A DNA stretch of 27,938 nt from a virus (IMGVR_UViG_3300032288_004743:1-27938); one strand, 5' to 3'; positions 529 to 24,589 are shown, counted from the first letter of the stretch. The notes: generated by a model not told the origin, from the sequence alone. Translations and numbers: made by a program.

Positions 529-622
529 CCGGGTACCCCTATAATTTGCTTTTCCTTTTCTTGCTATTTTGCTATTTTAAAATTTATAATTATATATCTT
601 TTTTCCCTATATGGAGAATTTT

Positions 623-1354
623 ATGTCTAAAGAAGAACGCCAATTAGAATACTTTAAAAAAATTTCAAATGATGATCGCTATAGTAAATACTTAAATCGT
701 CTTTCTGAAAAACAAGTTAACAAGATTAAAGCATCTGTTGGTCATCAAGGGGTTTATACTATCTCCCCCATTATTTGCCAAGGACCAGATAAGTGTCCTT
801 TTCTTTCTCGCTGTCCTATTCCTGACTATGACGATAACGGAAAGTTGTTAAAAGGTAAGCTAGATGATTATCCTGTTAACCAACCTTGTATAGTAGAAAA
901 AATTTTTATCGAACAAAAGATTTTAGATTATATGAAGCATTTAGATGTTGATCCTACTAATCCTGTAGAGATGTCTATTGTAGATGAGTTATCTCTTATT
1001 GATTTATATAAGAATAGATGTATGACAGTATTATCTAGTGGAGATAAGAATGGATTTGGTAGAGATTTTCTTTTAACTGAAGTTACTGGTTTTAATGAAA
1101 ATGGTGATGTCGCGACTCAAACCAAGTTACATCCTTTATTAGACTTAATTGATAGGTTAGAGAGAAGAAGAGAGAAATGGTTAGAGAAATTGATGGAAAC
1201 TCGTAAAGCTAGAGCAGAGTTTATTTCTAAGATGGATGATAGTACTAATTCTAAAGTCTTGGGTGAAATTCAAAAGTTAAGAGAGGCTTTAATAAATAAC
1301 TCTGAGTCTGTTATTATGATTGGCGAGGAGATATTGTTAGATGATCACGACTAA
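623..1354 (+). CDS. Cys-cluster protein at the head of the morphogenesis block, 243 aa
   Basis: I chose ATG 623 rather than the in-frame ATG at 611, because GGAG (613-616) lies 6 nt before 623 and inside the longer version. Residues C52, C58, C64 and C89 (ICQGPDKCPFLSRCP, then QPCIVEK) form a compact cluster that probably binds zinc or an Fe-S cluster. The rest is mainly helical and highly charged, with an Arg/Lys/Glu-rich helix (ERRREKWLEKL) that could be a coiled coil. Its position ahead of terL makes a small-terminase or packaging accessory role possible, but no HTH is evident and I do not assign one. Its 3' end overlaps the next start by 14 nt, suggesting translational coupling. Confidence 0.8.
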   Translation: MSKEERQLEYFKKISNDDRYSKYLNRLSEKQVNKIKASVGHQGVYTISPIICQGPDKCPFLSRCPIPDYDDNGKLLKGKLDDYPVNQPCIVEKIFIEQKILDYMKHLDVDPTNPVEMSIVDELSLIDLYKNRCMTVLSSGDKNGFGRDFLLTEVTGFNENGDVATQTKLHPLLDLIDRLERRREKWLEKLMETRKARAEFISKMDDSTNSKVLGEIQKLREALINNSESVIMIGEEILLDDHD

Positions 1355-4300
1355 TCCAAAATTTGCTAGCTATTCTTTATCTGTATTAAGTCCTACTGGT
1401 ACATTTGCAATGCAAGGTTCATCAGGGGAAGTACAGGTAATTAAAGATGCTGAACAAGGACAAAAGTTTAATATTACTTCTGGTACACGTACTCAATTAA
1501 TAAATAAACCGCCGTTTGAAGAGAATATATTAAAAAACGCCGTATTATTTGATATTGAAACTCTTGGTGTACAAACTCAAACAATACACGAAATGTCTTT
1601 GTTTGATTTAGAGAATAACAAGCTAACTGTATTCTTACCAGAAAATAATCTTATTAGAGATGCTAATCATGATATTAATGCATTTAATATGGTATCTAGT
1701 TCTAAGAGAGAGAAAGTAGATGTACTTAAACAGTTAGGTGATGATGCAAAGGCTAAATTATCTTTTAAAGATATTGCGTTTGCTGATTTCTTAATGAATA
1801 GAAAAGCGTATACAGAATTAATTCAAGAGACTAGTGGAAAAGCAGAATTCAATGCATTTAATAACTTACTTACTAATTTACAAGCAATAGACGATAATGC
1901 AAGTTTAGATGCTGCTAATAAAGAGAAACAGAAAGCTGCGTTGCTTTTTAATGATGCAAATGTTTCTATGCTTAGGGACAAATCTTTATTGAAAGATGCC
2001 GGATTTAATAAAGCTTTTGAGAGAGACAATCAATATTTAGCTAGATACATACTTGAAGGTTCTGAAGCATTTGAAAAATTTCAAAAAGAACAACCAGCGC
2101 TATCTAAATTCTATTCTTATTTATCTGAAGCTTCTGGCAAGTTTAATCAAACAGATTTAACTGAATTAACTGAATCTTATATTAAATCACTTGGTACTTC
2201 TGGTAAATATACTGCAGATCAATTAAAAGGTTTGAATATTGAAATTGTACAAGGCAAACCAATGGATCAGCTACTTAAAGATGTAGCTTCTAGAATGCAA
2301 GATAAAACTGTATTTATTGCAAATGCAGCGTTTGAATCTAAACAAATTGGCGCGCAAATACAAGCCTCTGTAGAAGATCAATTAAATCAAAGAATTACAG
2401 CCAAAAAAGCGGAATTAGGTTTAACTGCAGATCAGGAATTACCAAGAAAGATTCTTTCTGCAATTAAAGAAGAAGTATATAGTGAACATAATCCTTTTGC
2501 AAAGGTTGGTTTTGCAGGCTCTGTATCTACTGGTGAACCTTTTTATGTATCTGGTATTGAATATAATGCTGCAGCTACACAAGGTAGAATGACTGGTAAT
2601 TATACTGGATTAGCTAAACAGATATTACAAGGTACTGCACCTGGCGAAACAAGAGACATTCTTGACATATTTAGAGCAGAACAATCTATGCTTAAAAAAT
2701 ATGATATTACTAGTGCAAATAGACCAATTGCTTTATCTGTTGAAATGCAGGGTAGGTTACATAAATTTACAGAATTAATGATGTCTGGCGCGTCCGAAGA
2801 AGAATTAAAAGAAACGCTAAGTAAGTTTAAAGAAACACACACTTCTTCTCTTGACGTTATGGTGCATGAAGCTACTGCATTAAAGCAATCTGTAGTACAA
2901 ACAGAAGCTTTATTTGAATATATGACTAGAACAGATAGAGGTAAGGACTTATTTAAATTAGCCAAAGAAGGAAAAGGTGGATTATATCAAGCTGTTGCTT
3001 ACGGCAAGATACTTGAAGATTTAAGTCCTAAATTAGAAAAAATTGCTCTACAACAAAGAGTAGTCACTAATCTTAAACAAGTAGAAGAATTTGGTTATGC
3101 TACTCAAGCTGAAGTCACTGGTATTAAATATAGAGAGCAACAAAGAGAAATTGGAACTCCTGATAATAGGTTTTTATTAAAAGAGAAATTAGCTACTCCT
3201 AATTATGAACGTAAAGAGTTAATGACTTTTGAAGATTTTAAAAAATCAATTTTAGAACAAGAGATATATGATTATAAGGGTAAACCACAAGATTTTGTAG
3301 AGATAGAAAAAGGATTGCTAGGTAGTGGTTTTATTAAACCATTAGGAGAGGGTAAATATGAGTTTGTAGATCATTTGACTAATATAGAAGATCAAAGTGA
3401 TGCAGCTAAAGAAACAAGGTCTAAATTTAAAGATTATATAAAGGCGCAAGAAAATAAAGTTTCTGAATCTATTAAATCAGTAGAAGAATATTCTGAGAAT
3501 TTCAATTTAACTAACTTCAAGAATAGCGTTAATAAATTCTTTGGAATGAATAATCTTGAAGATATTAAACCAGTAGAAATTCAACCGGGATTTACTAAAA
3601 AACTCACTCCAGAACAAAAAGCTGCACAAGAAGTAAGATCTACTACTAAAGCTTTAAACCAACATTTAAGTGAAGCTAGATCTCACTTTATGTTTATGAT
3701 GAAAGATTTCTATGGTAAGCCTCAATTTAGCGATATAGAAGCTGCGTTAGACGATGAACATCATGTAGTCAGTAAATTAAATAATACTACTACTCCTGAA
3801 GTGAGACAATTATTTGAAGATTATAAAAATACTGGAGAAATTACAGTTGGCAAAACTAGAAAACAAAAACCAAAGACTGCAACTGCAGAACCTGAAATTA
3901 AAAAAGCTTTTGTAAAAGATTATTTAGAAGCGCGCTATCATGAAGAAACTGGTATCAACCAAGACTTAAATAGAATCACACCTGCGCAACAAGAAACTTA
4001 TATTGCCGGACAAAAAAGAATATTACAACAAGCTGCAGAGAGAGAATTACTTTTTGGTACGCAAAATATTCCAGAAGCAGAAAAACAAATAAATGAGCAA
4101 ATAATTTACGGTAAGAAGACCGTTGGTGAATATAGACAAGACTTTTCTACTTACAAACAAACTGGTGAAATAAAAACTTCTTACGGTGCAAATATTTTAG
4201 ATGAATCTTTTTCTAAAGATTCAAGCGATGCCGATAAAGCAAAAAGATTTTCTCAAGTTGTATTCGAAGCGGAAGAATCCGCTAGAATGCCATTAGGAGC

Positions 4301-6128
4301 TTCAGGAGAAGTACTTAAATATACAGAACCTGAAATTAAGAATTATTTAATAAATAATGAAGTTCCAACTTCTTCGCCAAAAGTATTAGCTGAAGCACCA
4401 GCTATAATTGAACCTACCGTTAAGCCTAATGCAGTTAATATAGAAATGCCGACTGCAAAACAAATAAACGAGATTGCAGAACCAATAATGAAAAGAAATC
4501 TAAACCAAGGTTTAGATCAAGTCATTAAAGATTCATTTAGAAGTTCGAAAGTAATGAAGGGTTTAGGTGTTTATGCAGCTGGTGCTGCGAGTTTGGGTTT
4601 ATTAAGTTTAGCTCAAGAAGATTTACCAAAAGAAAAATCGTTAGTATCTCAAGATTATAGTTCTTGGTTTGAAAATCAAAAACAATATTTTGGTAGCGAA
4701 AGTAATTTTAAAACCGCAATTAATAAGAAATATGAATCTACTTTTGAAGGTTTACCAGAAGAAGGCTTTGCTTCTTATTTAAGAAAGATAAACACAGACT
4801 TTGGTTCTCCTTATCAAGGTCCAGAAATTTCTCAAGGTGTATTTGATAATCAAAGATTAATGAATGAACGCCGTAAATATATGCGACAAGTATTTGCAGA
4901 TCGTAATTTTAGAGAAGGTGGTGAAATTCACGATATGCTTAGAAGTTTTGTTTCTTTTAGACCAAAGTTTCAAAGAGTACAACAATTATATAGCGAACAT
5001 GAACAAGTAGATGACAGAACTTTAGCAGGATTAAAAGGTAAAAACTTAGTAAAATTAAAAGTAAGTGACGAATATCAAATAAATGTAGAAGACGCAGATA
5101 CTATTACCTTACAAAGAAAAGGGGTACCAAATAATAGTCTTGCTGCGTTTATGGGATCTAATAGTTTTAGTTTCCGTTTAGCTGGTATAGACGCTCCTGA
5201 AACTGCACACGAAGGAAGAGCATCTCAACCACACGCAGAAGAATCTAAGAAGCTATTACAAAATTTAATTAGCAAGGGTGAATTAGATATTGTTGTTGAT
5301 CCAGAAAATGTAACTTATGGTCGTCAAGTAGCTACTTTGTTTTCTAAAGGAAAGAATTTAAACTTAGAATTAATTAGAGAAGGTGCTGTATCTTATCTCC
5401 CTTTTAAAGGAAAGGGTCAGCAACAGATGTATGATCAGAAAGCGTATGCAGCTGCTCATAAATATGCATCAGAAGCAAATAGAGGTATGTGGGCTGAACC
5501 TTATTTCCAAGTATATGCTGACATGATGCGACGCACTGGACAATCAATTACTTTTAATACTTTGGTAAATGCTCAAGAAACTGCAAAGAATTCCATTACA
5601 AGTAATATTGCCACAACAATGGAACAAGCACAACAAGAAGGTGAATATACTCAAGCTCAAAAAGAAGAGATGAATTTAATTGCGGAAGATATTAAAGATA
5701 GAAAAGGTTTGCAAAAATCACAACCTGAAGTCTTTAAATCTTTAGAATTAAGAAAACAGTATGAAGAGACTAAAAATACAAATCCTTTAAAGGATGATTT
5801 TAGTGGACGTTTTGTTGATGGTTCTTTAAATAATCAAAAGTATAATTCTCATTTAGATGAGATGTCTTATGATTTAAAGAGATTAATAGAATCAAAAGGT
5901 AGTAAAAATTTAAATAATAAAATGAAAACTACTGGTTCTAAAAGAAATAACTTAGATTTAGTAGAGAGTGGTATGAACGCACAAAAGAGTCAATCTATTA
6001 CTCAAACAAATCCACAAATGCACATAGATAGAGAGAAACGTATAATGAGACAAAATGCAATGCAAGCCATGCAACATAAAGCTTTGCTTAATTTAAAACA
6101 ATCACCAATAAACCATCATAGGATGTAA
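1341..6128 (+). CDS. Giant dual-nuclease protein: DnaQ-like exonuclease plus SNase domain, 1595 aa
   Basis: The N-terminal third carries DEDDh-type 3'-5' exonuclease motifs: FDIETLG (D71, E73), NAAFESKQIG (motif II, with E332 where Asp is normal) and HTSSLD (H500, D505). The spacing between motifs is long, implying insertions. Residues about 1237-1370 are a staphylococcal-nuclease domain: DADTITL (D1251, D1253), RLAGIDAPET (R1279, D1284, E1287) and YGR (R1328) match the Ca-binding and catalytic positions of the family. Between the domains are mostly charged helical regions and one hydrophobic Gly/Ala stretch (about 1073-1091). The C-terminus holds MRQNAMQAM (1569-1577), almost the same as a motif in the next protein. 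The gene sits two genes before terL. Possible roles are a virion-packaged nuclease ejected with the DNA or a packaging-linked nuclease; the domains are clear, the role is inferred. The start has GAGGAG 10 nt upstream. Confidence 0.9.
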   Translation: MITTNPKFASYSLSVLSPTGTFAMQGSSGEVQVIKDAEQGQKFNITSGTRTQLINKPPFEENILKNAVLFDIETLGVQTQTIHEMSLFDLENNKLTVFLPENNLIRDANHDINAFNMVSSSKREKVDVLKQLGDDAKAKLSFKDIAFADFLMNRKAYTELIQETSGKAEFNAFNNLLTNLQAIDDNASLDAANKEKQKAALLFNDANVSMLRDKSLLKDAGFNKAFERDNQYLARYILEGSEAFEKFQKEQPALSKFYSYLSEASGKFNQTDLTELTESYIKSLGTSGKYTADQLKGLNIEIVQGKPMDQLLKDVASRMQDKTVFIANAAFESKQIGAQIQASVEDQLNQRITAKKAELGLTADQELPRKILSAIKEEVYSEHNPFAKVGFAGSVSTGEPFYVSGIEYNAAATQGRMTGNYTGLAKQILQGTAPGETRDILDIFRAEQSMLKKYDITSANRPIALSVEMQGRLHKFTELMMSGASEEELKETLSKFKETHTSSLDVMVHEATALKQSVVQTEALFEYMTRTDRGKDLFKLAKEGKGGLYQAVAYGKILEDLSPKLEKIALQQRVVTNLKQVEEFGYATQAEVTGIKYREQQREIGTPDNRFLLKEKLATPNYERKELMTFEDFKKSILEQEIYDYKGKPQDFVEIEKGLLGSGFIKPLGEGKYEFVDHLTNIEDQSDAAKETRSKFKDYIKAQENKVSESIKSVEEYSENFNLTNFKNSVNKFFGMNNLEDIKPVEIQPGFTKKLTPEQKAAQEVRSTTKALNQHLSEARSHFMFMMKDFYGKPQFSDIEAALDDEHHVVSKLNNTTTPEVRQLFEDYKNTGEITVGKTRKQKPKTATAEPEIKKAFVKDYLEARYHEETGINQDLNRITPAQQETYIAGQKRILQQAAERELLFGTQNIPEAEKQINEQIIYGKKTVGEYRQDFSTYKQTGEIKTSYGANILDESFSKDSSDADKAKRFSQVVFEAEESARMPLGASGEVLKYTEPEIKNYLINNEVPTSSPKVLAEAPAIIEPTVKPNAVNIEMPTAKQINEIAEPIMKRNLNQGLDQVIKDSFRSSKVMKGLGVYAAGAASLGLLSLAQEDLPKEKSLVSQDYSSWFENQKQYFGSESNFKTAINKKYESTFEGLPEEGFASYLRKINTDFGSPYQGPEISQGVFDNQRLMNERRKYMRQVFADRNFREGGEIHDMLRSFVSFRPKFQRVQQLYSEHEQVDDRTLAGLKGKNLVKLKVSDEYQINVEDADTITLQRKGVPNNSLAAFMGSNSFSFRLAGIDAPETAHEGRASQPHAEESKKLLQNLISKGELDIVVDPENVTYGRQVATLFSKGKNLNLELIREGAVSYLPFKGKGQQQMYDQKAYAAAHKYASEANRGMWAEPYFQVYADMMRRTGQSITFNTLVNAQETAKNSITSNIATTMEQAQQEGEYTQAQKEEMNLIAEDIKDRKGLQKSQPEVFKSLELRKQYEETKNTNPLKDDFSGRFVDGSLNNQKYNSHLDEMSYDLKRLIESKGSKNLNNKMKTTGSKRNNLDLVESGMNAQKSQSITQTNPQMHIDREKRIMRQNAMQAMQHKALLNLKQSPINHHRM

Positions 6129-6130
6129 AA

Positions 6131-7315
6131 ATGGAAGTTAATAATAATTTAGATTATGCAAATGATAAATCGTTAGGTTCTGCAGCGTTTAATACTTTAA
6201 GTACAAGTGCTTTAGTATACACTGCTGCTAAAAATTTAAATCATTTAAGCACAGGTGGCGCTCAATTCTTTTTAAACGCAAATCCGGTAAATACTGCTTC
6301 TACAAGTGGTTCTGCAGCTGCGTTTATATTTGAAGAAGTAGCAGGTGGACCAAAGTATTCAAATATTCAACAACTAGGCTCTCAATACTTAGATACTAGT
6401 ACTAATAAAATTTTAGATCCTGCAAAAGTAGAATCAGCTATACTTAATAATCAAAAGAATGTTGGTGCTTTAAAAGGCGTCGCTATTAATCCTATGGGTG
6501 GCGTAGGTATGGCTTTGGGTTTGGGTATGACTGCATGGACTATGTACGATAGCTACCAAACAGATGGTATGCAAGGTATGGCAGAAGCAGCATTAGCATC
6601 TAGTATTGCTTATCCATATGGTTTTAAAGCTACTATGCGTACTGAAACTATTAATATATCAAATTTGCAAAATTATATGCGAGATACAAGATTTGAACAA
6701 ATGGCAAAGAACATGGGTTTAGATAAAGCTGATTTAGAAACAAAAGTTAGAAATGGCAGTACTTTAAAATTAGCAGATAATAATAGATGGTTTACTAATA
6801 ATTTTACTGGAAAGGGTAATATTCCTTATTTGTCAGTTGGTCTTGGTATGATGGGACCTATTATGGGTGCGGCTGTTTTTGGTAATTTAGGTTTTGGTAT
6901 GGGTAAAGCAATTGGTAATGGTATTTCGAATATGCTAGGACAAGGAGATTCTATGGCATTAGGAACCTTAGGTGGTATTGCTGGTGCAATGGCTATGGCT
7001 CCTATTGGTGCAACAATTATGAGAAGTTTCAAAGGTGCTTTGGGTTTTGGTGCTTTAATTGGTGGTGGTGCAATTTTATCTAAAACTGCTGGCGGTTTTA
7101 TTTCTGAAGGCATGAAAAGAATATCTCAAAACAAACGAGGTCTAGATTTTTCTACAGATGCGCAACCTTATTTCAGCAGAAGCGCAGTTACTATGAGACA
7201 AAGAGCTTTGCAAGCTATGTCAAATTCTGTTACAAATGCTAGAAGTGCTTTAGGTAATGAAGCATCTATTATGCATATGAACCGCGATTATTTTGCAACC
7301 TATGGAAGATTATGA
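6131..7315 (+). CDS. Gly/Ala-rich membrane-pore-like virion protein, 394 aa
   Basis: No family is recognised by name. The N-terminal 110 residues are polar. Hydrophobic, small-residue-rich stretches follow at about 122-138, 231-266, 275-297 and 302-324, with GxxxG-type spacing (for example VGLGMMGPIMGAAVFGNLG) like membrane-inserting helices. The C-terminus carries MRQRALQAM (355-363), then a Ser/Asn-rich tail with SALGNEASIMHM. The MRQxAxQAM element recurs at the end of the preceding nuclease. The ribosome binding site AGGAT is 6 nt before the ATG, and the stop overlaps the terL start by 4 nt (ATGA). Such a composition next to packaging genes suggests an ejected protein that forms a conduit through the host membrane; this is inference. 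Confidence 0.85.
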   Translation: MEVNNNLDYANDKSLGSAAFNTLSTSALVYTAAKNLNHLSTGGAQFFLNANPVNTASTSGSAAAFIFEEVAGGPKYSNIQQLGSQYLDTSTNKILDPAKVESAILNNQKNVGALKGVAINPMGGVGMALGLGMTAWTMYDSYQTDGMQGMAEAALASSIAYPYGFKATMRTETINISNLQNYMRDTRFEQMAKNMGLDKADLETKVRNGSTLKLADNNRWFTNNFTGKGNIPYLSVGLGMMGPIMGAAVFGNLGFGMGKAIGNGISNMLGQGDSMALGTLGGIAGAMAMAPIGATIMRSFKGALGFGALIGGGAILSKTAGGFISEGMKRISQNKRGLDFSTDAQPYFSRSAVTMRQRALQAMSNSVTNARSALGNEASIMHMNRDYFATYGRL

Positions 7316-9510
7316 AAAAACCTGACACATCATTTTTATATGAAACAAATGAATACGGCGTTGTACATCATAAAATACATGCTGAAGTTCCAGAAGACGT
7401 AATTCAATATTATAAAGAAAATTATGATATTAGAACTGATGTACATAAGACTTGTATATCTTGCCAAATTCGACAAATAGAAAAATATCCTGGAGAGGAT
7501 AAATTTATAATTCCATGCAAGGGTATACCAAGAGGGTTGCCACCGGGTTCTGCTGAGAAATTAGAAGAAATTTCTAAAACCTCTGGCGTTCCAAAGGAAC
7601 AAGCTAAGCGTTTAATGTTAGCTACAATTGACCCTGTTGCTTGGGCTGAATTAATGTTTGGTTTTGATGATAAAGATAATAAATGGAAATTAAGAGCATA
7701 TCAAAAAGAACAATTAAGATGTACTTCTAAACGTATTGCAATTAGAGAAGGACGTCGTTCTGGTAAAACGTTTATGAGCGCGCTTAAATTACTTTATTAC
7801 GCATTTAATTTAAAGGTATCTAAAGGACGTGATTTGCAAGGTAGAGAGGTTATGCTAGGACCAAGCATAATGATAGTTACTCCTTATCAGGCTCAATTAA
7901 CTAATATCTTTGAGGAAATGGAAAGATTAGTAAAACGTAATTATGAATTAAGATCAGAAATAGTAAGTGGAACTGGAGATAATCTTTATATTAAAACGCC
8001 AACCTTTAAAATGGAATTTAAAAACCAAGCTTCAATTACAGGTTTTGTTTCTGGTATTGGTATGCGACAAGACGGTTCTGGTGGTGGTACCATGCGTGGT
8101 TTCTCTGCTGATATTGTTTATCTTGACGAAATGGATATGATTCCAAAAGATGTATTAGATAAAGTTATTAATCCTATTTTAGCTACTACACCAGATACAA
8201 TGCTTATAGCTACATCAACACCAATTGGTAAGAAATCTAAGTTTTATGAATGGTGTTTAGAGCGTCCAGATTTCAAAGAAGACTTTCACCCTTCAAGTGT
8301 AATTCCTCACTGGGAACAAATAAAAGAAGAGATCATTAGAGAATCTACTAAAGAATCTTTTATGGCAGAATATATGGCGGTTTTTGTAGACTCTGAATCA
8401 GGTGTGTTTAAATCTGAATGGATTCAAAAAGCTCGCGCAGATTATACATATTTAGATGCGTCTAACCCTTCTAAGATTAGTGAACTTGGTATTCAGAATT
8501 CATTAAACAGAACTGTTGCTATTGGTATTGACTGGAATAAAAATGCTGGTACTGAATTCTACGTTATCGGATATTTTCCTGTAGCTCAAATGTGGGTAGC
8601 TTTAGATGCCTTGAATATTCCACACGAGGAATATTCAGCTAAACGTTGGATCAGTGAATTAATTAAATTAAATTTTAAATGGAAACCAAATTATATATAT
8701 GCAGATGAAGGTTATGGACATACTATTATTGAAGATTTAAGATATGAAACTTATAGACTTAGACAGAAACAAAATAAAACCGCTGTTGATTTAGAAACAG
8801 TGTTGATACCAGATAGACTTACTGCGTTTAATTTCTCTTCTAATGTAGAATTAAAAGATCCAGTAAGAAATGAAATAATTAAGAAACCTGGTAAAAACTT
8901 CTTAGTAGAGAACGCACAGCGTATTTTTGAAGAAGGTTGTTTTGTTTTTCCGGCCGAAGATGAAAAATTAAAAAATCAATTACAGAATTATGTAATTGCA
9001 AAACGTCATCCAAGTACAGGAAAACCTGTATATGGAATGCTTAATGATAGAATTGGCGACCATAGACTAGATGCTTTAATGTTAGCTCTTGGTGCTTTAG
9101 TATTAGAAGAATCAGTATATAATGGCAAATCTATGATGCCATCAGTACCGTCCTTTCATAAACGTAATGAAACTTCAAATGAATATATTTCGCCATCTAT
9201 TGAAGCTGATGAAAAATTAAATGACATGAAAAAGAAAAACTTTCCTGGTCAAGTTAATATCTTAAAGATTCTAAGAGGTGGCGGTTCCGAAACAGAAGAT
9301 AAAATTGCTAAAGAAGTTTACAAGCAAGATGGATTACCTGCTTATCAACCAAAACAGAATCAAAAGGATCGTAGCTTGATTAAACAGAAAGAGTTATCTA
9401 TATTAGAAGGTATAGAAAATTGGAAACAAAACCCAAGCCAAAACACAGTTTCTTCATTTGGTGTTGCTCCAAAAAGAGGACGTTTTGGTAGCAAGAATAG
9501 GAGTTGGTAA
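7312..9510 (+). CDS. terL: Terminase large subunit (packaging ATPase-nuclease), 732 aa
   Basis: This is the motor that pumps DNA through the portal and cuts the concatemer. The ATPase domain has Walker A GRRSGKT (147-153), Walker B VYLDEMD (D272, E273) and a coupling motif ATSTPIG (300-306). The C-terminal RNase H-like nuclease domain has acidic residues at IGIDWN (D407), YIYADEG (D465, E466) and LNDRIGDHRLD (D583, D587). The length is large for the family because of an N-terminal extension with C48, C51 and C69 (CISC, then IIPC), a possible zinc site, and a basic, disordered C-terminal tail after about 620. It overlaps the upstream gene by 4 nt, and its last base is the first base of the next ATG. 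Confidence 0.97.
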   Translation: MKKPDTSFLYETNEYGVVHHKIHAEVPEDVIQYYKENYDIRTDVHKTCISCQIRQIEKYPGEDKFIIPCKGIPRGLPPGSAEKLEEISKTSGVPKEQAKRLMLATIDPVAWAELMFGFDDKDNKWKLRAYQKEQLRCTSKRIAIREGRRSGKTFMSALKLLYYAFNLKVSKGRDLQGREVMLGPSIMIVTPYQAQLTNIFEEMERLVKRNYELRSEIVSGTGDNLYIKTPTFKMEFKNQASITGFVSGIGMRQDGSGGGTMRGFSADIVYLDEMDMIPKDVLDKVINPILATTPDTMLIATSTPIGKKSKFYEWCLERPDFKEDFHPSSVIPHWEQIKEEIIRESTKESFMAEYMAVFVDSESGVFKSEWIQKARADYTYLDASNPSKISELGIQNSLNRTVAIGIDWNKNAGTEFYVIGYFPVAQMWVALDALNIPHEEYSAKRWISELIKLNFKWKPNYIYADEGYGHTIIEDLRYETYRLRQKQNKTAVDLETVLIPDRLTAFNFSSNVELKDPVRNEIIKKPGKNFLVENAQRIFEEGCFVFPAEDEKLKNQLQNYVIAKRHPSTGKPVYGMLNDRIGDHRLDALMLALGALVLEESVYNGKSMMPSVPSFHKRNETSNEYISPSIEADEKLNDMKKKNFPGQVNILKILRGGGSETEDKIAKEVYKQDGLPAYQPKQNQKDRSLIKQKELSILEGIENWKQNPSQNTVSSFGVAPKRGRFGSKNRSW

Positions 9511-11246
9511 TGACTATACCTCAATTATTTAATAAATTAATGGGTAGAGGTGTTTTAGGCAATGTTGGCGATGCTGTAGTTAGTATGGGGAAAGAAGCTC
9601 AAGAAACCTATAAACAACACACTAATGCGGTTGGTAAAAATGTATTTAAAGATTATGATAAAGCTCCAATTGAACCTACTTTTGCTCGCGTAGATGAGAG
9701 TATTTACGGTAGTGATCCAACGACACTTGCTGCAATACCAACAAGAACAAGAACTGCTACAGAAGAAATGCTTTTTAATGAAATAACAAATAGAAATACT
9801 CAAAGGCAAGCTTACTCAACTTATGATGCTCAAAAAAAAGTTTATGATGAACAACAGGGTTTGATGAGTAAATTATCTGGAGATGTATCATTAGGCAAAG
9901 ATGAAACAAAAGAAACTGTTTTAGCAGCAGCTCAAAAAGCAGGCACAATTAATGAGTCACAAAAGTCAGCCTTAGATTATTTTATGGTTCAAAATCAAGG
10001 AAAAGCTTATACTCCTGATAGCATTGATAAAACTTTTGCAGTAAGAGATGAAAGCGTTGTTGATAAATTTCAAACAAAATCTGCTACATTCTTAGAAACA
10101 CCAACTTCTATGCCTGGTATGTCTAAGATTGGAGATGATGGTGATAAGAATCAATTTGCTTTAAAAAATGATTTAATTACTCTTGGTGCAGGTGCTGCAG
10201 TTGGTGGTATAGTAGGTTCTGCAATGTATGATAATGCAGAAGGTGGTATGCTTACAGGGTTAGCTGGTGCTGGTTTAGGTCGTGGTATTGCGCGCGCAGT
10301 AAATAAAAATATAGATTCTATTAGTGCTTATGGAATGAAAACTGTACTTGGTGATCAATTAGTAAAAGAGGGGGATAAAGTTGGTTATGGTATTGATAAA
10401 GCCAAAATGCAAAAGCTTGGTTTTACAGATGCAGATAAATTAGACGTAGATGTCACTACTGGTAAAGTAACTCAAGGAGGAAAAGATTTTGATTTAGAAG
10501 CCCAAAGAAAAGCTACTGAAGCAAATGCTAAAACTGAATTGACTATGGAAGATATTGGTTTAGGTGCTAAGGTTGGAAACAAAGATGAAAAAGTTGGTAC
10601 TTTTACTCAAAGAATAATAAATGAAGAAGAAAATACTTTTAATAAATCTGTAAGTGATATTAATGCCGAGCCTGCTATTGCTAGTCATAAAGCTACAGCG
10701 CCAACAATAGATCAAGAAATTAATGTTGGTGGTTATGATATAAACGTGCCAGCAAATACACAATTAACTGATGACATGATTAAGCAACAAGTTTTAAAAC
10801 AAAGAGAAACAAATCTATTAAATGAAAAGAATACCATATCGAACAATGCAGGATTAACTAAAGAAGCCAGAGATAAACAATTATTTGAAAACGAAATGAA
10901 ATCTCAAGCGTTTACTAAAGATGGTGCAAGAAATGCTTCTTTATTAGAAGATCAAGCTAAAGCTGCACATGCAGCTATTTTTAAACCACAGAAGAATGTT
11001 GCTGTCGATGCAAAACAAGCAGACACTATGAATCTAAATAATCTAAAAAGTAAAAAAGAAAATGATTTAGGTGCAGTTCAAAACATGGCTAAAAATATGT
11101 TGACGAATCCAGGCGGAGCGGGTAGACTTACTGGACAATACAGAAACATGATTCTTGGTGGTGCCGCTCTTTCTGGTGTTGCTTTTACATCTAATAAAAG
11201 AGATTATAGAAGAGGCATTAACGCTAATAAAGGAAATAGAATATGA
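9510..11246 (+). CDS. Gly/Ala-rich protein downstream of terL, 578 aa
   Basis: The family is unknown. ATG 9510 is the likely start: AGGAG (9499-9503) lies 6 nt upstream, and the ATG shares its A with the terL stop codon. An upstream in-frame TTG at 9504 has no suitable site. The protein is mostly polar and charged, with a Gly/Ala-rich hydrophobic stretch at about 223-262 (ITLGAGAAVGGIVGSAMY, then GLAGAGLGRG) and another at about 547-560 (MILGGAALSGVAF), followed by a basic tail (SNKRDYRRG). With the proteins at 1341 and 6131 it makes three candidate membrane-active virion proteins around terL. The gene probably continues the operon, with a 4-nt overlap to the next ORF. Confidence 0.85.
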   Translation: MTIPQLFNKLMGRGVLGNVGDAVVSMGKEAQETYKQHTNAVGKNVFKDYDKAPIEPTFARVDESIYGSDPTTLAAIPTRTRTATEEMLFNEITNRNTQRQAYSTYDAQKKVYDEQQGLMSKLSGDVSLGKDETKETVLAAAQKAGTINESQKSALDYFMVQNQGKAYTPDSIDKTFAVRDESVVDKFQTKSATFLETPTSMPGMSKIGDDGDKNQFALKNDLITLGAGAAVGGIVGSAMYDNAEGGMLTGLAGAGLGRGIARAVNKNIDSISAYGMKTVLGDQLVKEGDKVGYGIDKAKMQKLGFTDADKLDVDVTTGKVTQGGKDFDLEAQRKATEANAKTELTMEDIGLGAKVGNKDEKVGTFTQRIINEEENTFNKSVSDINAEPAIASHKATAPTIDQEINVGGYDINVPANTQLTDDMIKQQVLKQRETNLLNEKNTISNNAGLTKEARDKQLFENEMKSQAFTKDGARNASLLEDQAKAAHAAIFKPQKNVAVDAKQADTMNLNNLKSKKENDLGAVQNMAKNMLTNPGGAGRLTGQYRNMILGGAALSGVAFTSNKRDYRRGINANKGNRI

Positions 11247-16708: not shown

Positions 16709-16763
16709 GCTTGAACAAATATGATTATTAATATAGAATTTGCAAAAGAACAGAGAGGTAAGA

Positions 16764-18479
16764 ATGTCTAAATTTAATTTAATAAATAAAGCCTTTAAAA
16801 CTTTAGATATACAAAAAACAGCACAATCATTAGAAGATAATAATAAACCCTTATGGATTGAAAATATTCCTGGCGTAAGAATTAAAAGATTAGACAATAA
16901 ATCTTACTCTTATAATGACAGATTTAGAGGCAATTGGTTTAAGCCAGAATACGATCTTACCGAATTGCAAATTGCTCAAGATACAGATGCGTATTTATTT
17001 AAAGCTATTCAAAAGAAAGTACATAAAATTATTCTAGCTGGTTGGGAATTTGTAGGTAAAGATAAAGAAGTAGTTAATTATATTAAGAAACGTATAAGAG
17101 AAATAGAAATTGTATCTGGTAAAGCTTTTGATGAATTAGTAATTAGCACTGCTCATGATCTTGCTAGGTATTCAAATTGTATGTGGGTAAAAGTAAGAGA
17201 TCCAGAAGCCTCTTCTGGTGTGATTAGACCGCATCAAAATAAAGAATTAGATCCTGTTGCTGGTTATTTTATTCTTCCATTTGAAACATTATGGTTCAAA
17301 GTAAAACCTAATGGTGAAATAAAAAAGATTATGCAAATTATGCATAATACAGCGCGAATGAAAGAATGGAATCCGGAAGATGTGATTCATTTCTACACTA
17401 ATAGAAAACCAGGTTTTGCAATGGGTACTCCTGAGGTATTACCAGTATTAGAAGACTTGGCTTTATTAAGAAGAATGGAAGAGAACGTAGAAGGATTAGT
17501 AGACGCAAATTTAAATCCTTTATTTCATTATACAGTTGGTACTGACGAACATCCTGAACGCTATGGACCTGATGGTACAAAAGAAACAGATATAGTGCGT
17601 CAAACAATTGAATACATGCCTAGCGGTGGTATTTTTGTGTCTGATCATAGACACAAAATTGAAGCTATTGGATCTGAGGGTAAAGCTTTAAATGCAATTG
17701 AATATTTAGAATATTTTAAGAAAAGAGTATTCGCTGGATTAGGAGTTAGTCCAATGGATATGGGTGAAGCTGATTCTGCAAATAGTAGTACAGCAAGTAC
17801 TTTATCTAAATCAGCTATTCAAGATGTAGAAGCCTTACAGGCTAATATAAAAATCTTTATTGATAATTATGTAATTAATGAATTGTTAATTGAAGGTGGT
17901 TTTACAGATGCAATTATGGATCCTGAAAAACGTGTAGAAATTAAATTTGGTACGGTAGATAAAGAAGAGAAATCTAAATTAGAAAACCAAACTATTCAAC
18001 TGTGGTTAAATAAATTAATCACAGAAGATGAAGCTCGCAAACGTTTAGGCGAAAAACCAATGGAAGATAAGAATAGAGAACATACTTATTATAAATTGTA
18101 TGAAGAGCCCGCAGCATTATTAAAAATAATGGGTTCTGCAGTTGACGCTTCTGCACAAGCCTTAGCTAAAAATCCTTCTTCTAATTTGACTGAAGAACAA
18201 TTGAGTAAAGAAAAAAATGAAAAGCAGAAACAACAAGAAAAATTTACTCAGAACCAACCACAAGCTCAAATGAAGGGTAATGTAATAAAGCCCGGAGCAG
18301 CTAATCAATCTAATAATCAAGCTAGACCTGAAAATCAAAAAGGTGTAAGAAATGCACCAAAATTTAATAAAGATGAAACAAATGATAAAAATAACTTGAT
18401 TTCAGAGACTCTGGATAAGATATTATCTAATGAAGAAATTGATAAAGTTTTAAATGACTTTATTGAAAAAGTAAAATAG
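16764..18479 (+). CDS. Portal protein, 571 aa
   Basis: This forms the dodecameric channel at the unique head vertex, through which TerL drives DNA and to which the neck attaches. The start at 16764 is chosen because AGAGAGG stands 5 nt upstream; an in-frame TTG at 16740 has none. Typical portal features are an early wing-type region (DAYLFKAIQKKVHKIILAG), a central stretch with WNPEDVIHFYTNRKPGFAMG and TPEVLPVLEDLALLRRMEEN, the FAGLGVSPMDMGEADSANSS segment and the long-helix region that follows (STASTLSKSAIQDVEALQAN). The C-terminal 90 residues are Gln/Asn/Lys-rich and probably disordered. It is followed by the protease and capsid genes, the standard order. Confidence 0.9.
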   Translation: MSKFNLINKAFKTLDIQKTAQSLEDNNKPLWIENIPGVRIKRLDNKSYSYNDRFRGNWFKPEYDLTELQIAQDTDAYLFKAIQKKVHKIILAGWEFVGKDKEVVNYIKKRIREIEIVSGKAFDELVISTAHDLARYSNCMWVKVRDPEASSGVIRPHQNKELDPVAGYFILPFETLWFKVKPNGEIKKIMQIMHNTARMKEWNPEDVIHFYTNRKPGFAMGTPEVLPVLEDLALLRRMEENVEGLVDANLNPLFHYTVGTDEHPERYGPDGTKETDIVRQTIEYMPSGGIFVSDHRHKIEAIGSEGKALNAIEYLEYFKKRVFAGLGVSPMDMGEADSANSSTASTLSKSAIQDVEALQANIKIFIDNYVINELLIEGGFTDAIMDPEKRVEIKFGTVDKEEKSKLENQTIQLWLNKLITEDEARKRLGEKPMEDKNREHTYYKLYEEPAALLKIMGSAVDASAQALAKNPSSNLTEEQLSKEKNEKQKQQEKFTQNQPQAQMKGNVIKPGAANQSNNQARPENQKGVRNAPKFNKDETNDKNNLISETLDKILSNEEIDKVLNDFIEKVK

Positions 18480-18495
18480 ATGGAGAATAATCAAT

Positions 18496-20589
18496 ATGCC
18501 TAATATAATTAAGTTTAATGATTACGTTCAAATTAATCCTGATAGTAAAATTTTAACTTTATCAAAAGAAGACAAAATTAAAATTACAGATAATTTGATT
18601 ACTAATTCTTATACTAAAGGTAAGGGGTTAGTAATTACTTACGACCTTTCACATTCTGGTAGAAAAATTAATAATAGAGTTTATAGTGCGCGTGGACAAC
18701 GTAAAGGTGTTGAATCTTTAACTAATCCTTTTAATAAACCAATTTTAAAACATCACGACCAACATACCGATCCTATTGGTAGATTTATTGGTGGTGAATA
18801 TCAAGATTTATCAGAACATATTATGAGTCATTTAAGAAATGACTTGTCTGCTTATAATCAATTGCGTCATGCATTTGATGCTGATGAACCAGAATACATG
18901 TATCGCTCTTTAAAGAAATATGAATTATTAACTAATTCTACTTGGCCTGGTATTGGTAGAATGCGTGTAAAAGCTAATATTACAGATGAAGATGCTATTA
19001 AAAAGTTTCTTGATGGTAGATATTTAACTTTTAGTGCAGGCTCATCAACCAATAGACATGTTTGTTCTATTTGTAATGAAGATTGGGCTACTAATGGACC
19101 TTGCGAACATACTCATGGTAGAGACTATGATGGCGAAATGTGTGTATTTATTTGCGGCGACTTTATTGTTCATGAAGGTTCTGTAGTGAATACACCTGCT
19201 GATAATTTCTCTCAAGTAGTATCTATTGAAAGAATGACTGATTCAGAATTACCAATTAAAGAAAAACAAATAAAAGACAATAATGCAATTGAAATCATAT
19301 TTACTGATTTTGAAATGGAAAACAATAATGACGTTCAAAACGAGAGAGGATCTTCCGATGAGTCCAACACCAATGAAAAAACCAATGAAACCCAAGAAGA
19401 CAACCAAGAAACAGCCAACGAAGAAATACTAGAGGATTTTGATTTTGTCTCTTTAGATGAAAAAACATTTAAAGTACCTGCAGGTGCAAAAGGTAATGCA
19501 CAAAAGGTTCTTGATTGGAAAGACAAATATGGATCTGAAGTTAAAGGTATGACTGCTGTTGGTTGGGCGCGTGCAAGACAATTAGCTACTAAATCAGAAA
19601 TTGGACTTAGTACTGTTAAACGCATGGCTATGTTTAATCGTCATAGAAAGAATGCAGAAGTAGATCCTCAATATAAATCTGAACCATGGAAAGATCGTGG
19701 ATATGTTGCATGGTTAGGTTGGGGTGGTACTTCTGGTATTGATTGGGCGATTAAAATTTCTGAAGCTAATAATGATGCTGAAATTGAACAAATAAACAAA
19801 GAATTTGAGGTTAATATGTCAAACGAAAACCAAGATTTAACAGCCGAACAAACTGTTATTAATAATGAAGATCAAAATATTGATTGGTTCACACTTGATC
19901 TGGCATTAACTGCACTAATGGAAGATAAAGCTCTTTCTGCAGAAGCTAGAAATAGATTACCAACTGATGTATTTTGCGGGCCAGATAAAACATTTCCAGT
20001 ACCTGATTGCGCTCACGTTACTGCAGCTAGAAGATTGATTAATCAATCTAAGCTTTCAGACGATCAAAAGAAGAAAGTTCTATCTTGCGTTAGTGGTAAA
20101 TCAAAATCTTTGGAATGCGAAAAATCTAAAGACCAATTAGATATTGAATCTTTGCAAGTTAAATATGATTCAGCGATTTCTAGAATTTCTGAATTAGAAG
20201 AAAAGATTAAGCAAATGCTTGAATTATTTGTAGCGAAGAGTCAAAATAAAGATGCAGAAACAAGTGTCAATAATGACTCTCAAAATAATGTAAATATTGA
20301 CACAAATATTTCTGTAAATAATGACACTGAAAATACTGTAAAAATTAACGAAAATAACCTTGACTTGCTTACCAAAAATGTAGAGAATCCATCTCAACAC
20401 TTAGGAGATAGCGAAAACGTGATTAATACTAAGCCTACAACAAAGCTTGATGCATTTGAACAAAATATTTGTGACCAATATTTTTCAATTAAAACTCAGT
20501 TTGGAGTTGATGCGGCTGAAGATTATTTATTTACTCAAGCAAGTTATTTACCACGCGGCTTTCATCCAGAAAACTTTACAAACAATTAA
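18496..20589 (+). CDS. Prohead protease fused to extra domains, 697 aa
   Basis: GGAGAA precedes the ATG. Residues 40-245 look like a capsid maturation protease: NKPILKHHDQHTDPIGR (catalytic-type His at 86/87), DGRYLTFSAGSS (candidate Ser at 180-184), and an embedded Cys/His cluster (CSIC, then CEHTHG, then C216 and C220) ahead of EGSVVNTPAD. Then follow an acidic low-complexity linker (about 285-315), a domain with AVGWARARQLATKSEIGLST and a Trp-rich WLGWGG segment (about 325-425), a second domain with LPTDVFCGPDKTFPVPDCAH (about 465-545), a coiled coil (550-580), a duplicated Asn-rich stretch (590-621) and a conserved-looking tail. The C-terminal half may act as scaffold. An in-frame ATG at 19816 with GAGG upstream could give a separate scaffold-like product of 257 aa. 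Confidence 0.85.
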   Translation: MPNIIKFNDYVQINPDSKILTLSKEDKIKITDNLITNSYTKGKGLVITYDLSHSGRKINNRVYSARGQRKGVESLTNPFNKPILKHHDQHTDPIGRFIGGEYQDLSEHIMSHLRNDLSAYNQLRHAFDADEPEYMYRSLKKYELLTNSTWPGIGRMRVKANITDEDAIKKFLDGRYLTFSAGSSTNRHVCSICNEDWATNGPCEHTHGRDYDGEMCVFICGDFIVHEGSVVNTPADNFSQVVSIERMTDSELPIKEKQIKDNNAIEIIFTDFEMENNNDVQNERGSSDESNTNEKTNETQEDNQETANEEILEDFDFVSLDEKTFKVPAGAKGNAQKVLDWKDKYGSEVKGMTAVGWARARQLATKSEIGLSTVKRMAMFNRHRKNAEVDPQYKSEPWKDRGYVAWLGWGGTSGIDWAIKISEANNDAEIEQINKEFEVNMSNENQDLTAEQTVINNEDQNIDWFTLDLALTALMEDKALSAEARNRLPTDVFCGPDKTFPVPDCAHVTAARRLINQSKLSDDQKKKVLSCVSGKSKSLECEKSKDQLDIESLQVKYDSAISRISELEEKIKQMLELFVAKSQNKDAETSVNNDSQNNVNIDTNISVNNDTENTVKINENNLDLLTKNVENPSQHLGDSENVINTKPTTKLDAFEQNICDQYFSIKTQFGVDAAEDYLFTQASYLPRGFHPENFTNN
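19358..19432 (+). CDS. Candidate overprinted small basic protein, 24 aa
   Basis: In a different frame inside the protease gene, AGAGAGGA (19343-19350) stands 7 nt before an ATG opening a 24-codon ORF that begins MSPTPMKK. It contains nine Lys and several Pro and Thr and ends in KKY. The same DNA encodes only an acidic low-complexity linker in the protease frame. There the codons end in C unusually often (TCC, AAC, ACC, GCC). Those C bases are the middle bases of Pro and Thr codons in the small frame, which would explain the odd codon use. It is short, so chance is a real alternative. Confidence 0.35.
   Translation: MSPTPMKKPMKPKKTTKKQPTKKY
20263..20358 (+). repeat. Tandem 48-bp imperfect repeat encoding an Asn-rich linker
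   Basis: Two adjoining 16-codon units in the protease gene read SVNNDSQNNVNIDTNI (from residue 590) and SVNNDTENTVKINENN (from 606). They follow a coiled coil and precede the C-terminal domain, so they probably form a flexible spacer whose length can change by unit gain or loss. Confidence 0.75.
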
Positions 20590-21928: not shown

Positions 21929-23263
21929 ATGCCAGTTTTAAAATTAGTCGACGGTACAGAATTATCCTTACCAAGTAACCAAAAGCAAGCAGCTCGCTTT
22001 CTTGCTGACATGATCCGTAGTAATGGTCATGTTCCTAATTCAGATCAAAAAGTATCTTGGAAATCTTTTGCTGAAACAATCAGTCCTAAGAATAAAGATT
22101 TAGTTAAGGCTTCTGAAATTACACCTTTGCTTCAAACTTCTATGGAAATTTTAATCCGTGAACCTGTTGAACCAAATGCAATCATTACACCTTTATTTAC
22201 TCGTATTCAAGCACAAGGCCTTAACACTCAAATTTTGATGGGTGCTATGGGTGCTGTATATGCTGGTGATGTACAAGAACTTGGTACATATCCAGAAGTT
22301 AATTTCCAAATGGGTGGTGCTGTTTCTACAGCTTATATCGGTAAGAGCGGGATTGCTGCTTCTTTCACTGATGAAGCTCTTCGTTATAGCACATTTGATA
22401 TCATGGCAAAGAACCTTGAACTTATGGGTAATGCACTTGTACGTCACAAGGAACAAAAAGCTGTCGCTTTCTTGAAGCAACTTGGTACTTCTTTGTATGA
22501 CAATATCAATCCTTCACATTCTATTTATGGCGTAACCACTGGTCGTGGTTTGGCTGCTAATAAACTTGTTGGTAATGGTACTTTGTCCATGGACAACCTT
22601 ATGCGTGGTATGGCTCATATGGCTGAAGAAGGTTTCTCAGCTACAACATTGCTCATGCACCCATTATTCTATTATTCATTTATTCAAGATCCTATTTTAC
22701 GTCAAATGATGTTGATGCATGGTGGGGGATCTTGGTTCAATGCATATACTGGTGCACCTGGTGTATTGACTCCTTATAACAATGGTACAATGGGCGCTAT
22801 GGGTCCAACCAATGGTACAAAGATCAACAATGGTCGTGGTATTGGTTCTTCTGGTCAAGGCAGCAATGGTTCTGAAATTTCTTCAGTAACTGCTCGTTCA
22901 CAACAAGCTACTTCTGCTCCAAACCTTCCAAGTTATTTCCCATTTAACTTCCAAATCCTTGTATCTCCTCTTTGTCCTTATGATCCTGTTTCTGAAACAG
23001 GGGATATCTTCTTGCTCTCTGGTGGTAACATTGGTTATCATTTGGTTGATGAAGAACCTACAACTGTTGAATGGCGCGATGAAAACACAGAATCTGTCAA
23101 GGTTAAGATCCGTGAACGTTATGGTTTTGCTGTAGCTCATGAAGGTCAAGGCGTTGGCGTATTTAAGAATGTTAAGAGATCTGAACAATTCTGGGATGGT
23201 ACTGTTAAGGCTCTTGCTGAAATGGAAGACCTCTCTGAATCAGGCGTCAAGGGTAACATGTAA
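21929..23263 (+). CDS. Major capsid protein, 444 aa
   Basis: AGGAG precedes the ATG. The arrangement portal, protease, accessory, capsid and the sequence style fit an HK97-fold shell protein. The first 55-65 residues (up to about SEITPLLQTSMEI) are a likely N-terminal arm removed by the neighbouring protease. The core then begins REPVEPNAIITPLFTRIQAQ. A Gly/Asn/Ser-rich loop (about 275-325) interrupts the core and may be an exposed insertion. The C-terminal part (VKVKIRERYGFAVAHEGQGV) resembles the end of the shell domain. Arg codons shift from AGA to CGT/CGC here, as expected for the most highly expressed gene. It is followed by the only strong terminator in the block. Confidence 0.85.
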   Translation: MPVLKLVDGTELSLPSNQKQAARFLADMIRSNGHVPNSDQKVSWKSFAETISPKNKDLVKASEITPLLQTSMEILIREPVEPNAIITPLFTRIQAQGLNTQILMGAMGAVYAGDVQELGTYPEVNFQMGGAVSTAYIGKSGIAASFTDEALRYSTFDIMAKNLELMGNALVRHKEQKAVAFLKQLGTSLYDNINPSHSIYGVTTGRGLAANKLVGNGTLSMDNLMRGMAHMAEEGFSATTLLMHPLFYYSFIQDPILRQMMLMHGGGSWFNAYTGAPGVLTPYNNGTMGAMGPTNGTKINNGRGIGSSGQGSNGSEISSVTARSQQATSAPNLPSYFPFNFQILVSPLCPYDPVSETGDIFLLSGGNIGYHLVDEEPTTVEWRDENTESVKVKIRERYGFAVAHEGQGVGVFKNVKRSEQFWDGTVKALAEMEDLSESGVKGNM

Positions 23264-23346: not shown

Positions 23347-24589
23347 ATGTCTTGGTTTAAATCAAAAAAAGAATTAGAATTATATATGGAAGATGACTTT
23401 ACGTACGATCCATCCAACCCTTATACTGCAATGATAGAAGAAGAATTTATTGAAGTTAAAATAGGTGCAAAAACAAATGACAATAAACTTGATGACAGAA
23501 CTTTGCTACCCACAGAACCAATCGACGAACATACCGATAGGGTCTAGTCTTTATTTAGTTTTTGATAAAGAGGTAGATTTAGAATCTATACGTAGCTCGG
23601 TTATTTTATTTGGTAATGATTCAGATCGTACTGTAATGCCTGATAATGCATTATGGATTAATGAAAAACAAGGTGAGAATAAGGACTTTTTAAAAAGTCC
23701 TGGATATAAAGGCTTTTGTGAGTTTGATGTTGATATAAAATATTTAGATGCTCAAACTTTAGAAGTAATAGACGTTAATAATGATTTTGACAGAACATTA
23801 TATTATTGCGGCGTAATAATAACTCCTAAGATTACATTTGCAGTTAATACGGAATATACATTTTATATAATTGGTGCAAATACTCAATCTTTGGATCCAA
23901 TATACCAAACAAACAAAGCTGTATCTTTACGTACTGTTTATTCTCCAAAATTAATTGATACATTAGATTCTAGAATTAAGATAAGAGGAAATTATAAAGG
24001 AAAAGAATTAAATGGAAATAATTTAAATATTCAAATTGTTTCTTCTGGTAATGGTAATGTTGCACAATATGTATATTGGTTTGACGATCAAAATATTGAT
24101 ATGTCAAAAGTATCTAGATGTTCTGGACGTTGGAGATCAATAGATAAAGGTTTAGTAATTAAGTTTGATGATACTCAATATACTGAAGGCGAAATTATTA
24201 CTATTAAATGCTATCCTGTCGATTTATTACAAGATAGTTATATAGTTAAATTTACAACAAATGACGGCTCTATATTTATTGAACCAGAACCAGATTATAG
24301 AAGTACAAGTCCAATCAATACAGTAGTACAAGTAGATCCAAATGATAAACTTTTATCAATTATTTCTATTACTCCTGCAAGTGGTGAAGTTAATGTACCA
24401 ATTGAATCAAATAGAATAGTAATTACTTTTAATAAGAATATAGATCCCGCAACAATTACTCAGGATACTATTAAATTACAAGCATTACCAGTAAGTGGAT
24501 TCTATGATGATGGTCGTGATAAAAAAAGAGAATATAAATTGTATAAGATACTATCAGTTGAAGATAATAAAGTAATCATAGAATTTTAG
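23347..24589 (+). CDS. Ig-like (Big_5 type) structural protein read through a +1 frameshift
   Basis: A strong GGAG site starts a 66-codon frame (23347-23547) beginning MSWFKSKKELELYMEDD. The +1 frame is open from 23465 to 24589 but lacks a good start (GTG 23465 has no clear site). Both frames have Pro at the same place: CCC 23509-23511 in frame 0 and CCA 23510-23512 in +1. Joining there gives LLPQNQSTNIPIGSSLYLVF. This aligns without gaps in spacing with the second Ig-like repeat of the same protein, ITPASGEVNVPIESNRIVIT. The joined product is about 413 aa with two Big_5/SbsA-like repeats. It could be a programmed shift, a real mutation or a sequencing error. Role: probably a neck or tail accessory that binds other virion parts or surfaces. 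Confidence 0.75.
23509..23512 (+). other. Proposed +1 frameshift site CCC-A
   Basis: The switch must fall between the +1-frame stop at 23462-23464 and the frame-0 stop at 23545-23547. CCC followed by A lets a Pro-tRNA re-pair on CCA one base downstream, and the resulting protein keeps Ig-repeat register. Loss of one C from the CCC would give exactly the same product, so the sequence alone cannot tell recoding from an indel. Confidence 0.5.

Follow-up and report, generated by a model that had tools for sequence, protein, structure and literature searches.

The locus examined here raises the question of why a phage should encode, amid the genes for building and filling its head, a giant protein with two nucleases, and on which DNA these nucleases might act. 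The locus lies in a stretch of 27,938 nucleotides (hereafter, the window) from a linear IMG/VR virus record (IMGVR_UViG_3300032288_004743:1-27938). The protein, which we term NUC, was described in an initial annotation as combining a DnaQ-like (DEDDh) exonuclease and a staphylococcal-type nuclease (SNase) in a single chain of the packaging module, next to terL. Our analysis supports the presence of both regions in the one 1595-aa chain (Table 1), and NUC proves to be a giant two-nuclease protein conserved across a clade of large uncultivated tailed phages.

Table 1. Features of NUC and its neighborhood; positions are counted from the first nucleotide of the window.
Feature	Position	Strand	Basis or remark
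ORF1, 247 aa, Cys-rich, conserved upstream partner gene	611..1354	+	
NUC, 1595-aa protein with predicted DEDDh domain, hydrophobic segment and SNase domain	1341..6128	+	ORF, Pfam, alignments, 54 related contigs
Predicted DEDDh motif I, F-D71-I-E73-T, residues 70-74	1548..1562	+	D71, E73, T74 invariant
Predicted DEDDh motif II, A327-N-A-A-F-E332, Glu replacing Asp	2319..2336	+	aligns with HNAxFD of DnaQ
Predicted DEDDh D439-x-x-D442 element, equivalent of the DSLALAR-type strand/helix	2655..2666	+	invariant; in register
Predicted DEDDh motif III, E498-x-H500-x4-D505	2832..2855	+	invariant in 39 sequences
Glycine-rich hydrophobic segment, residues 1071-1089	4551..4607	+	most hydrophobic 19-mer of NUC
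EGxxxxGxxxxxRxxxTDFGSPYQG motif, residues 1135-1160	4743..4820	+	DFGSPYQ invariant in 25 sequences
SNase domain, residues 1278-1385	5172..5495	+	PF00565, E 3.3e-16
Conserved C-terminal tail of NUC, ending MRQNAMQAMQHKALLNLKQSPINHHRM	6024..6125	+	tail profile matches 1562-1595
ORF3, 394 aa, multi-hydrophobic, with conserved TMRQRAxxAMxxSxxNARSALGxEA tail	6131..7315	+	
TerL, large terminase subunit	7312..9510	+	PF03237, E 7e-13; phrog_2, E 4.5e-33
Portal protein (module context)	16740..18479	+	phrog_9232, E 6e-46
Weak protease match	18496-20589		
Major capsid protein (module context)	21929..23263	+	PF25209, E 3e-16

The matches to portal, protease and capsid proteins, together with a weak tail-sheath match that begins at the 3' end, identify the window as the head/packaging module of a contractile-tailed phage. 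The neighbors recognized by profile thus agree with the earlier placement of the gene in this module and not among replication genes. The adjacency to terL has to be qualified: the direct neighbors of NUC are ORF1, whose end overlaps the start of NUC by 14 bases, and ORF3, directly before which NUC stops, with TerL being the second gene downstream. By TerL and portal, the window groups with Acinetobacter phage ME3, Bacillus phage KLEB27-3 and Moorella phage MTATph1, a set that corresponds to the 0305phi8-36-like group (PMC5000817). Both direct neighbors of NUC have homologues in this set (ORF1: ME3_9 and KLEB27-3 gp005; ORF3: KLEB27-3 gp009 and ME3_12), and ORF1 is found 5' of NUC in every contig reaching that far. 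ORF1 bears the cysteine motif CxxxxxCPFLSRCP and is a candidate terminase partner; the annotation of ME3_9 as an RNA methyltransferase looks doubtful. Marginal matches to a PHROG small terminase (E 0.009) and to TrbI (E 0.016) were taken as chance. Elsewhere in the module, ORF5 (9504-11246, 580 aa) has glycine-rich hydrophobic stretches and a C-terminus, RRGINANKGNRI, that is kept in close relatives; TerL ends in KRGRFGSKNRSW; and a protein with a Big_5 Ig-like domain is encoded 3' of the capsid gene (23465-24589), possibly as a head decoration.

A search for close relatives with the NUC protein alone returned no match. With TerL as bait, five contigs were recovered (67-83% TerL identity), each with a NUC gene; alignment of these relatives led to 34 loci and a wider alignment to 75, of which 54 are core relatives on IMG/VR contigs, counting near duplicates and some contigs that cut NUC at their end. 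Several of the contigs span 100-184 kb. Over the length that it covers, each core contig retains the order ORF1-NUC-ORF3-TerL-ORF5-6-7-8-9-portal-protease, with small extra ORFs inserted in a few members. A tblastn search of 50,697 phage genomes recovered similarity to the SNase domain only and no full-length relative; likewise, the best 80 matches listed from a scan of GTDB contigs were SNase-only loci, with no full-length relative among them. A search of the open-access literature found no description of a DnaQ-SNase fusion family. One member has nevertheless likely been deposited already, judging by structural comparison: A0A6J5NQ80 (1342 aa, uncultured Caudovirales phage), annotated by its SNase domain only ('Staphylococcal nuclease (SNase-like), OB-fold'), is the best structural match to the model of a NUC homologue (E 1e-37).

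The SNase domain is the more readily recognized of the two. PF00565 scores 60.1 bits in NUC against a curated cut-off of 21 and matches every relative scanned. The active-site set named in the initial annotation (R1279, D1284, E1287 and R1328) is invariant across 25 relatives, as are D1251, D1253 and Y1326, and their equivalents likewise do not vary when 39 sequences are compared. The structural comparison suggested for this domain returned the expected OB-type fold, with the AF2 model of a homologue (L051) matching staphylococcal nuclease 1EY4 at E 4e-6 and TM(target) 0.80. Profile, conservation and model together leave us certain of the domain assignment. NUC shares with staphylococcal/micrococcal nuclease (PF00565) the fold, the calcium-ligand aspartates and the equivalents of R35, E43 and R87, but its SNase domain forms part of a giant phage protein, in which it follows a hydrophobic segment.

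The N-terminal region is far more diverged. With Pfam, single sequences gave no significant exonuclease match: RNase_T was touched by 3 of 34 members (best E 0.04) and an Rv2179c-like model by one (E 0.002). Yet DxET, DxxD and ExHx4D do not vary across 39 homologues with a mean column identity of 24%, ANxxFE is almost as constant, and D71/E73 and H500/D505, as proposed earlier, are invariant in both the 25- and the 39-sequence alignments. The second motif likewise lies where it should, with the reservation that its acidic residue is Glu332 rather than the canonical Asp: A327 is invariant and the N, F and E are conserved in at least 90% of 25 relatives, Glu being present in nearly all members and Asp in L048. 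Against a profile of 17 bacterial DEDDh proteins, hhalign gave the NUC profile 91.8% over motif I alone; after removal of clade-specific insertions, a trimming that was itself guided by the motifs, it aligned 143 columns at 97.2% (E 3.4e-11) with motifs I, II, DIxD and III in register, the last against HxALxD. Motifs II and III without motif I still aligned in register (E 9e-4 versus E >= 0.2 for controls). The AF2 model of the window's exonuclease domain is confident (pLDDT 90.9, pTM 0.90), with motif I forming its first strand. Foldseek of the window's N-terminus against the PDB gave no match below E 0.76, probably because of inserted helices, the weak matches including RB69 polymerase and the arenavirus NP exonuclease; with a homologue model, ME3_11 was found at E 1e-7, followed by viral polymerases and exonucleases at E 0.007-0.6. 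We hence regard the NUC N-terminus as a diverged DnaQ-like exonuclease on the strength of its motifs and the profile comparison, and as DnaQ-like rather than a canonical DEDDh enzyme in light of the conservative acidic substitution in motif II. With the DnaQ/epsilon 3'-5' exonucleases it shares motifs I and III and the DIxD element in the same order, and its predicted secondary-structure order fits the RNase H-like topology; it differs in the motif II Glu, in a motif I-II spacing of ~260 residues in the window as against ~90 in DnaQ, and in its late-gene context.

One rival reading is that NUC is a replication or recombination enzyme, its DEDDh domain proofreading for the phage's own Pol III-type polymerase. 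The clade does encode a Pol III alpha, and Pfam finds no other RNase_T-type exonuclease in the 9 records searched; however, the RNase_T model misses NUC as well, which makes that lack weak evidence. Further, the distance between the polymerase and NUC amounts to at least tens of kilobases in most of the clade's large records; the head-module position of NUC, its fusion to an SNase and its hydrophobic segment are equally out of keeping with proofreading, and the host can supply DnaQ. We therefore consider a replicative role very improbable. As a separate observation, Pol III alpha appears to be divided between two ORFs in L027, L032, L048, L051 and L053, with up to 5.5 kb separating them and the break always near profile position 100; in L035 a single 1184-aa ORF contains the two halves and an insertion. 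This looks like a split-intein or split-gene arrangement.

Between the two nuclease domains lies a hydrophobic stretch, which had been placed at residues 1073-1091 and was recovered here, shifted by two residues, as the top-scoring 19-mer of the protein. Its position is kept despite ~24-28% sequence identity: in nearly all of the 38 homologues checked, the top hydrophobic 19-mer lies 58-132 aa ahead of DFGSP, the exceptions being L031 (top 19-mer elsewhere) and L175 (varied motif). Its hydropathy is moderate (KD ~0.8-2.3) and its confidence in the homologue model is low. In a pattern search of whole large records the TDFGS motif that follows was restricted to the protein in the NUC slot, which leaves the idea of a general capsid-cargo tag unsupported; it was not found in 1.3 Mb of cellular control DNA. 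The NUC tail ends in SPIGHHRM or a near variant (H1592 invariant, M1595 in at least 90%). The initial annotation had seen a C-terminal motif common to NUC and the pore-like ORF3, which is not supported as homology: a profile of the NUC tail retrieved NUC-type proteins only, with ORF3 absent at E <= 1. ORF3 has a separate conserved tail, retained even in KLEB27-3 gp009 and ME3_12, and the two tails in the window have in common only an MRQxAxQAM-like stretch. We hence rejected a homologous shared tag in favor of two strongly conserved but separate families.

The cultured phages reveal what else may occupy the NUC slot. In ME3 it is ME3_11 (UniProt A0A172PZZ4), which like NUC has DnaQ-like motifs (DTETTG, NHRFE, that is, N-x-x-F-E, and HTALSD) and a hydrophobic C-terminal segment, and which matches the exonuclease profile weakly but in register at motif III; unlike NUC, it has 529 aa, lacks an SNase domain and ends in a different tail. 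The SNase of ME3 sits instead inside the 2329-aa baseplate hub ME3_37, and that of MTATph1 inside the 2225-aa CDS0032. Hardies et al. (2007) had observed an SNase on the hub of BtI1 and left it unexplained (PMC2147016). These hub or hub-like proteins resemble NUC in carrying an SNase on a giant protein but belong to the tail hub, with no DEDDh domain reported, in contrast to the terL-adjacent head module of NUC. Thus, the SNase is a part that can be exchanged among the giant proteins of the virion modules in this superfamily. In KLEB27-3 the slot protein gp006 has hydrophobic segments and ends in ERIGHHKM plus seven residues; it has no recognizable nuclease, and no SNase was found anywhere in that genome. 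With the hydrophobic segments and IGHHKM tail alone retained, the nucleases resemble a cargo that a carrier protein can bear or lack.

The presence of SNases in baseplate hubs, and the classically secreted, calcium-dependent nature of these enzymes, would also suit a nuclease whose SNase, with or without the exonuclease, acts outside the cytoplasm, in the envelope or a biofilm matrix, where it would remove DNA during entry or destroy the DNA of competing phages. We deem this improbable: NUC lies in the head module and not the tail module, no signal peptide is evident in it, and a proofreading-type DEDDh exonuclease would be odd as an extracellular enzyme.

The chief rival to ejection is a packaging-linked role, in which NUC, at the portal or terminase of the infected cell, would trim or debranch DNA and thereby allow packaging to begin or be completed, in the manner of T4 gp4. 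Its place as the second gene upstream of terL in the head module accords with this, as does the precedent of the T4 gp4 head-completion nuclease, whose homologues are virion-associated nucleases required for packaging (PMC7824862). Moreover, ME3_10, annotated as a head completion protein, directly precedes ME3_11, and KLEB27-3 and MTATph1 have a calcineurin-like/'DNA repair exonuclease' gene between terL and portal (L008:9924-10817; L009:2677-3537). The TnsA/REase nuclease domain of the gp4 type is, however, absent from NUC, where Pfam gives SNase only and the profile comparison DEDDh. Pairwise distances over 15 contigs point the same way: those of NUC follow the structural genes, ORF3, 6, 7 and 9 (rho 0.67-0.76), well above TerL (rho 0.35), while ORF1 and TerL agree at rho 0.85. 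Proximity to terL by itself is thus weak evidence of a terminase partnership, and the correlations are suggestive against NUC being a dedicated terminase partner. A packaging enzyme would also not be expected to have a conserved hydrophobic segment or an SNase that recurs in the hubs of relatives, nor to be replaced in KLEB27-3 by a protein without a recognizable nuclease. We hold the packaging role to be possible but doubtful.

We favor the reading that NUC is virion-borne and ejected, acting on DNA met on entry, with a probability of about one in two. Several of its features tend to fit such a protein, and we counted the following in its support: (i) the fixed head-module slot in the core relatives; (ii) the hydrophobic segment conserved in position; (iii) ME3_11 in the slot combined with the SNase of the ME3_37 hub; (iv) the carrier-like slot protein of KLEB27-3; (v) distances that track ORF3, 6, 7 and 9 and not TerL; (vi) the absence of any SNase besides the slot protein from each record searched, 12 of them core and 12 distant. 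Counted against it were the annotation of the KLEB27-3 slot proteins as 'hypothetical' while other proteins there are called 'structural'; the moderate hydropathy and low model confidence of the segment; the basis of the distance correlations in just 15 contigs; and the fact that no self-protection mechanism was identified. SNases also usually need millimolar calcium, which would restrict action in the cytoplasm.

Briefly, we conceive the mechanism as follows. NUC would be a late, virion-borne protein of the ME3/0305phi8-36-like large myophages, most likely internal to the head or in the neck, which might be loaded during head assembly and leave the particle with or before the DNA. The glycine-rich segment, perhaps together with the multi-hydrophobic ORF3, could seat it at the host membrane, where the SNase domain would make internal cuts and the DEDDh domain trim 3' ends, degrading the DNA met on entry, be it that of the host chromosome or some other DNA present at the envelope. 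What we infer in this scheme is the place of NUC in the virion, its ejection and insertion into the membrane, and the target and metal that it uses. Head-packaged, ejected enzymes are known in T4 Alt, P1 DarB and the N4 virion RNA polymerase, which resemble NUC in the proposed mode of action, by analogy only. If NUC is virion-borne, then a branch of large phages that is poorly represented in culture would have a family of giant entry proteins with two nucleases, so far annotated by the SNase domain alone, and this might answer the question posed in 2007 by the staphylococcal nuclease on the superfamily's hub proteins; ME3_11/ME3_37 offer a testable case in a cultured phage. If NUC instead serves packaging, DNA at the portal would be processed by a protein that unites two enzymes.

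The 17 distant loci (L184-L200) suggest a broader version of the ejection reading. ORF1 is detected in 15 of them, and the protein adjoining it always has an SNase. DnaQ-type motifs can be made out in L187, L188, L193, L195 and L197, with L196, L198, L199 and L200 being near copies, but not in L185, L189, L190, L191 and L194. Slot proteins in two loci have kinase-like matches (Bud32 in L185:989-4825, E 8e-6; ABC1 in L191:2906-8047, E 8.5e-5), and TDFGS is repeated two to four times per protein in some of these relatives. The varied enzymes and repeated motif suggest a modular carrier. We tentatively raise the possibility that the slot between ORF1 and ORF3/TerL houses an ejected multi-enzyme carrier for the first moments of infection: a chassis of hydrophobic segment, TDFGS motif (up to four copies) and conserved tail, onto which lineages would load a DEDDh exonuclease, an SNase, a Bud32/ABC1-like kinase and possibly others, as a phage counterpart of polymorphic effectors. 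A strict unit of hydrophobic segment followed by TDFGS was rejected for the distant relatives, where a strongly hydrophobic stretch precedes the motif in only 5 of 13 cases. By eye, the giant protein of L194 (3038-6748) also has a kinase-like region. Finally, the slot proteins of L184 and L185 have a stretch in common, ...LLPGxxN...GVGVY..., after which L184 has a nucleotidyltransferase-like DIDLLV; Pfam assigns no family here, and the region looks like a further enzymatic module.
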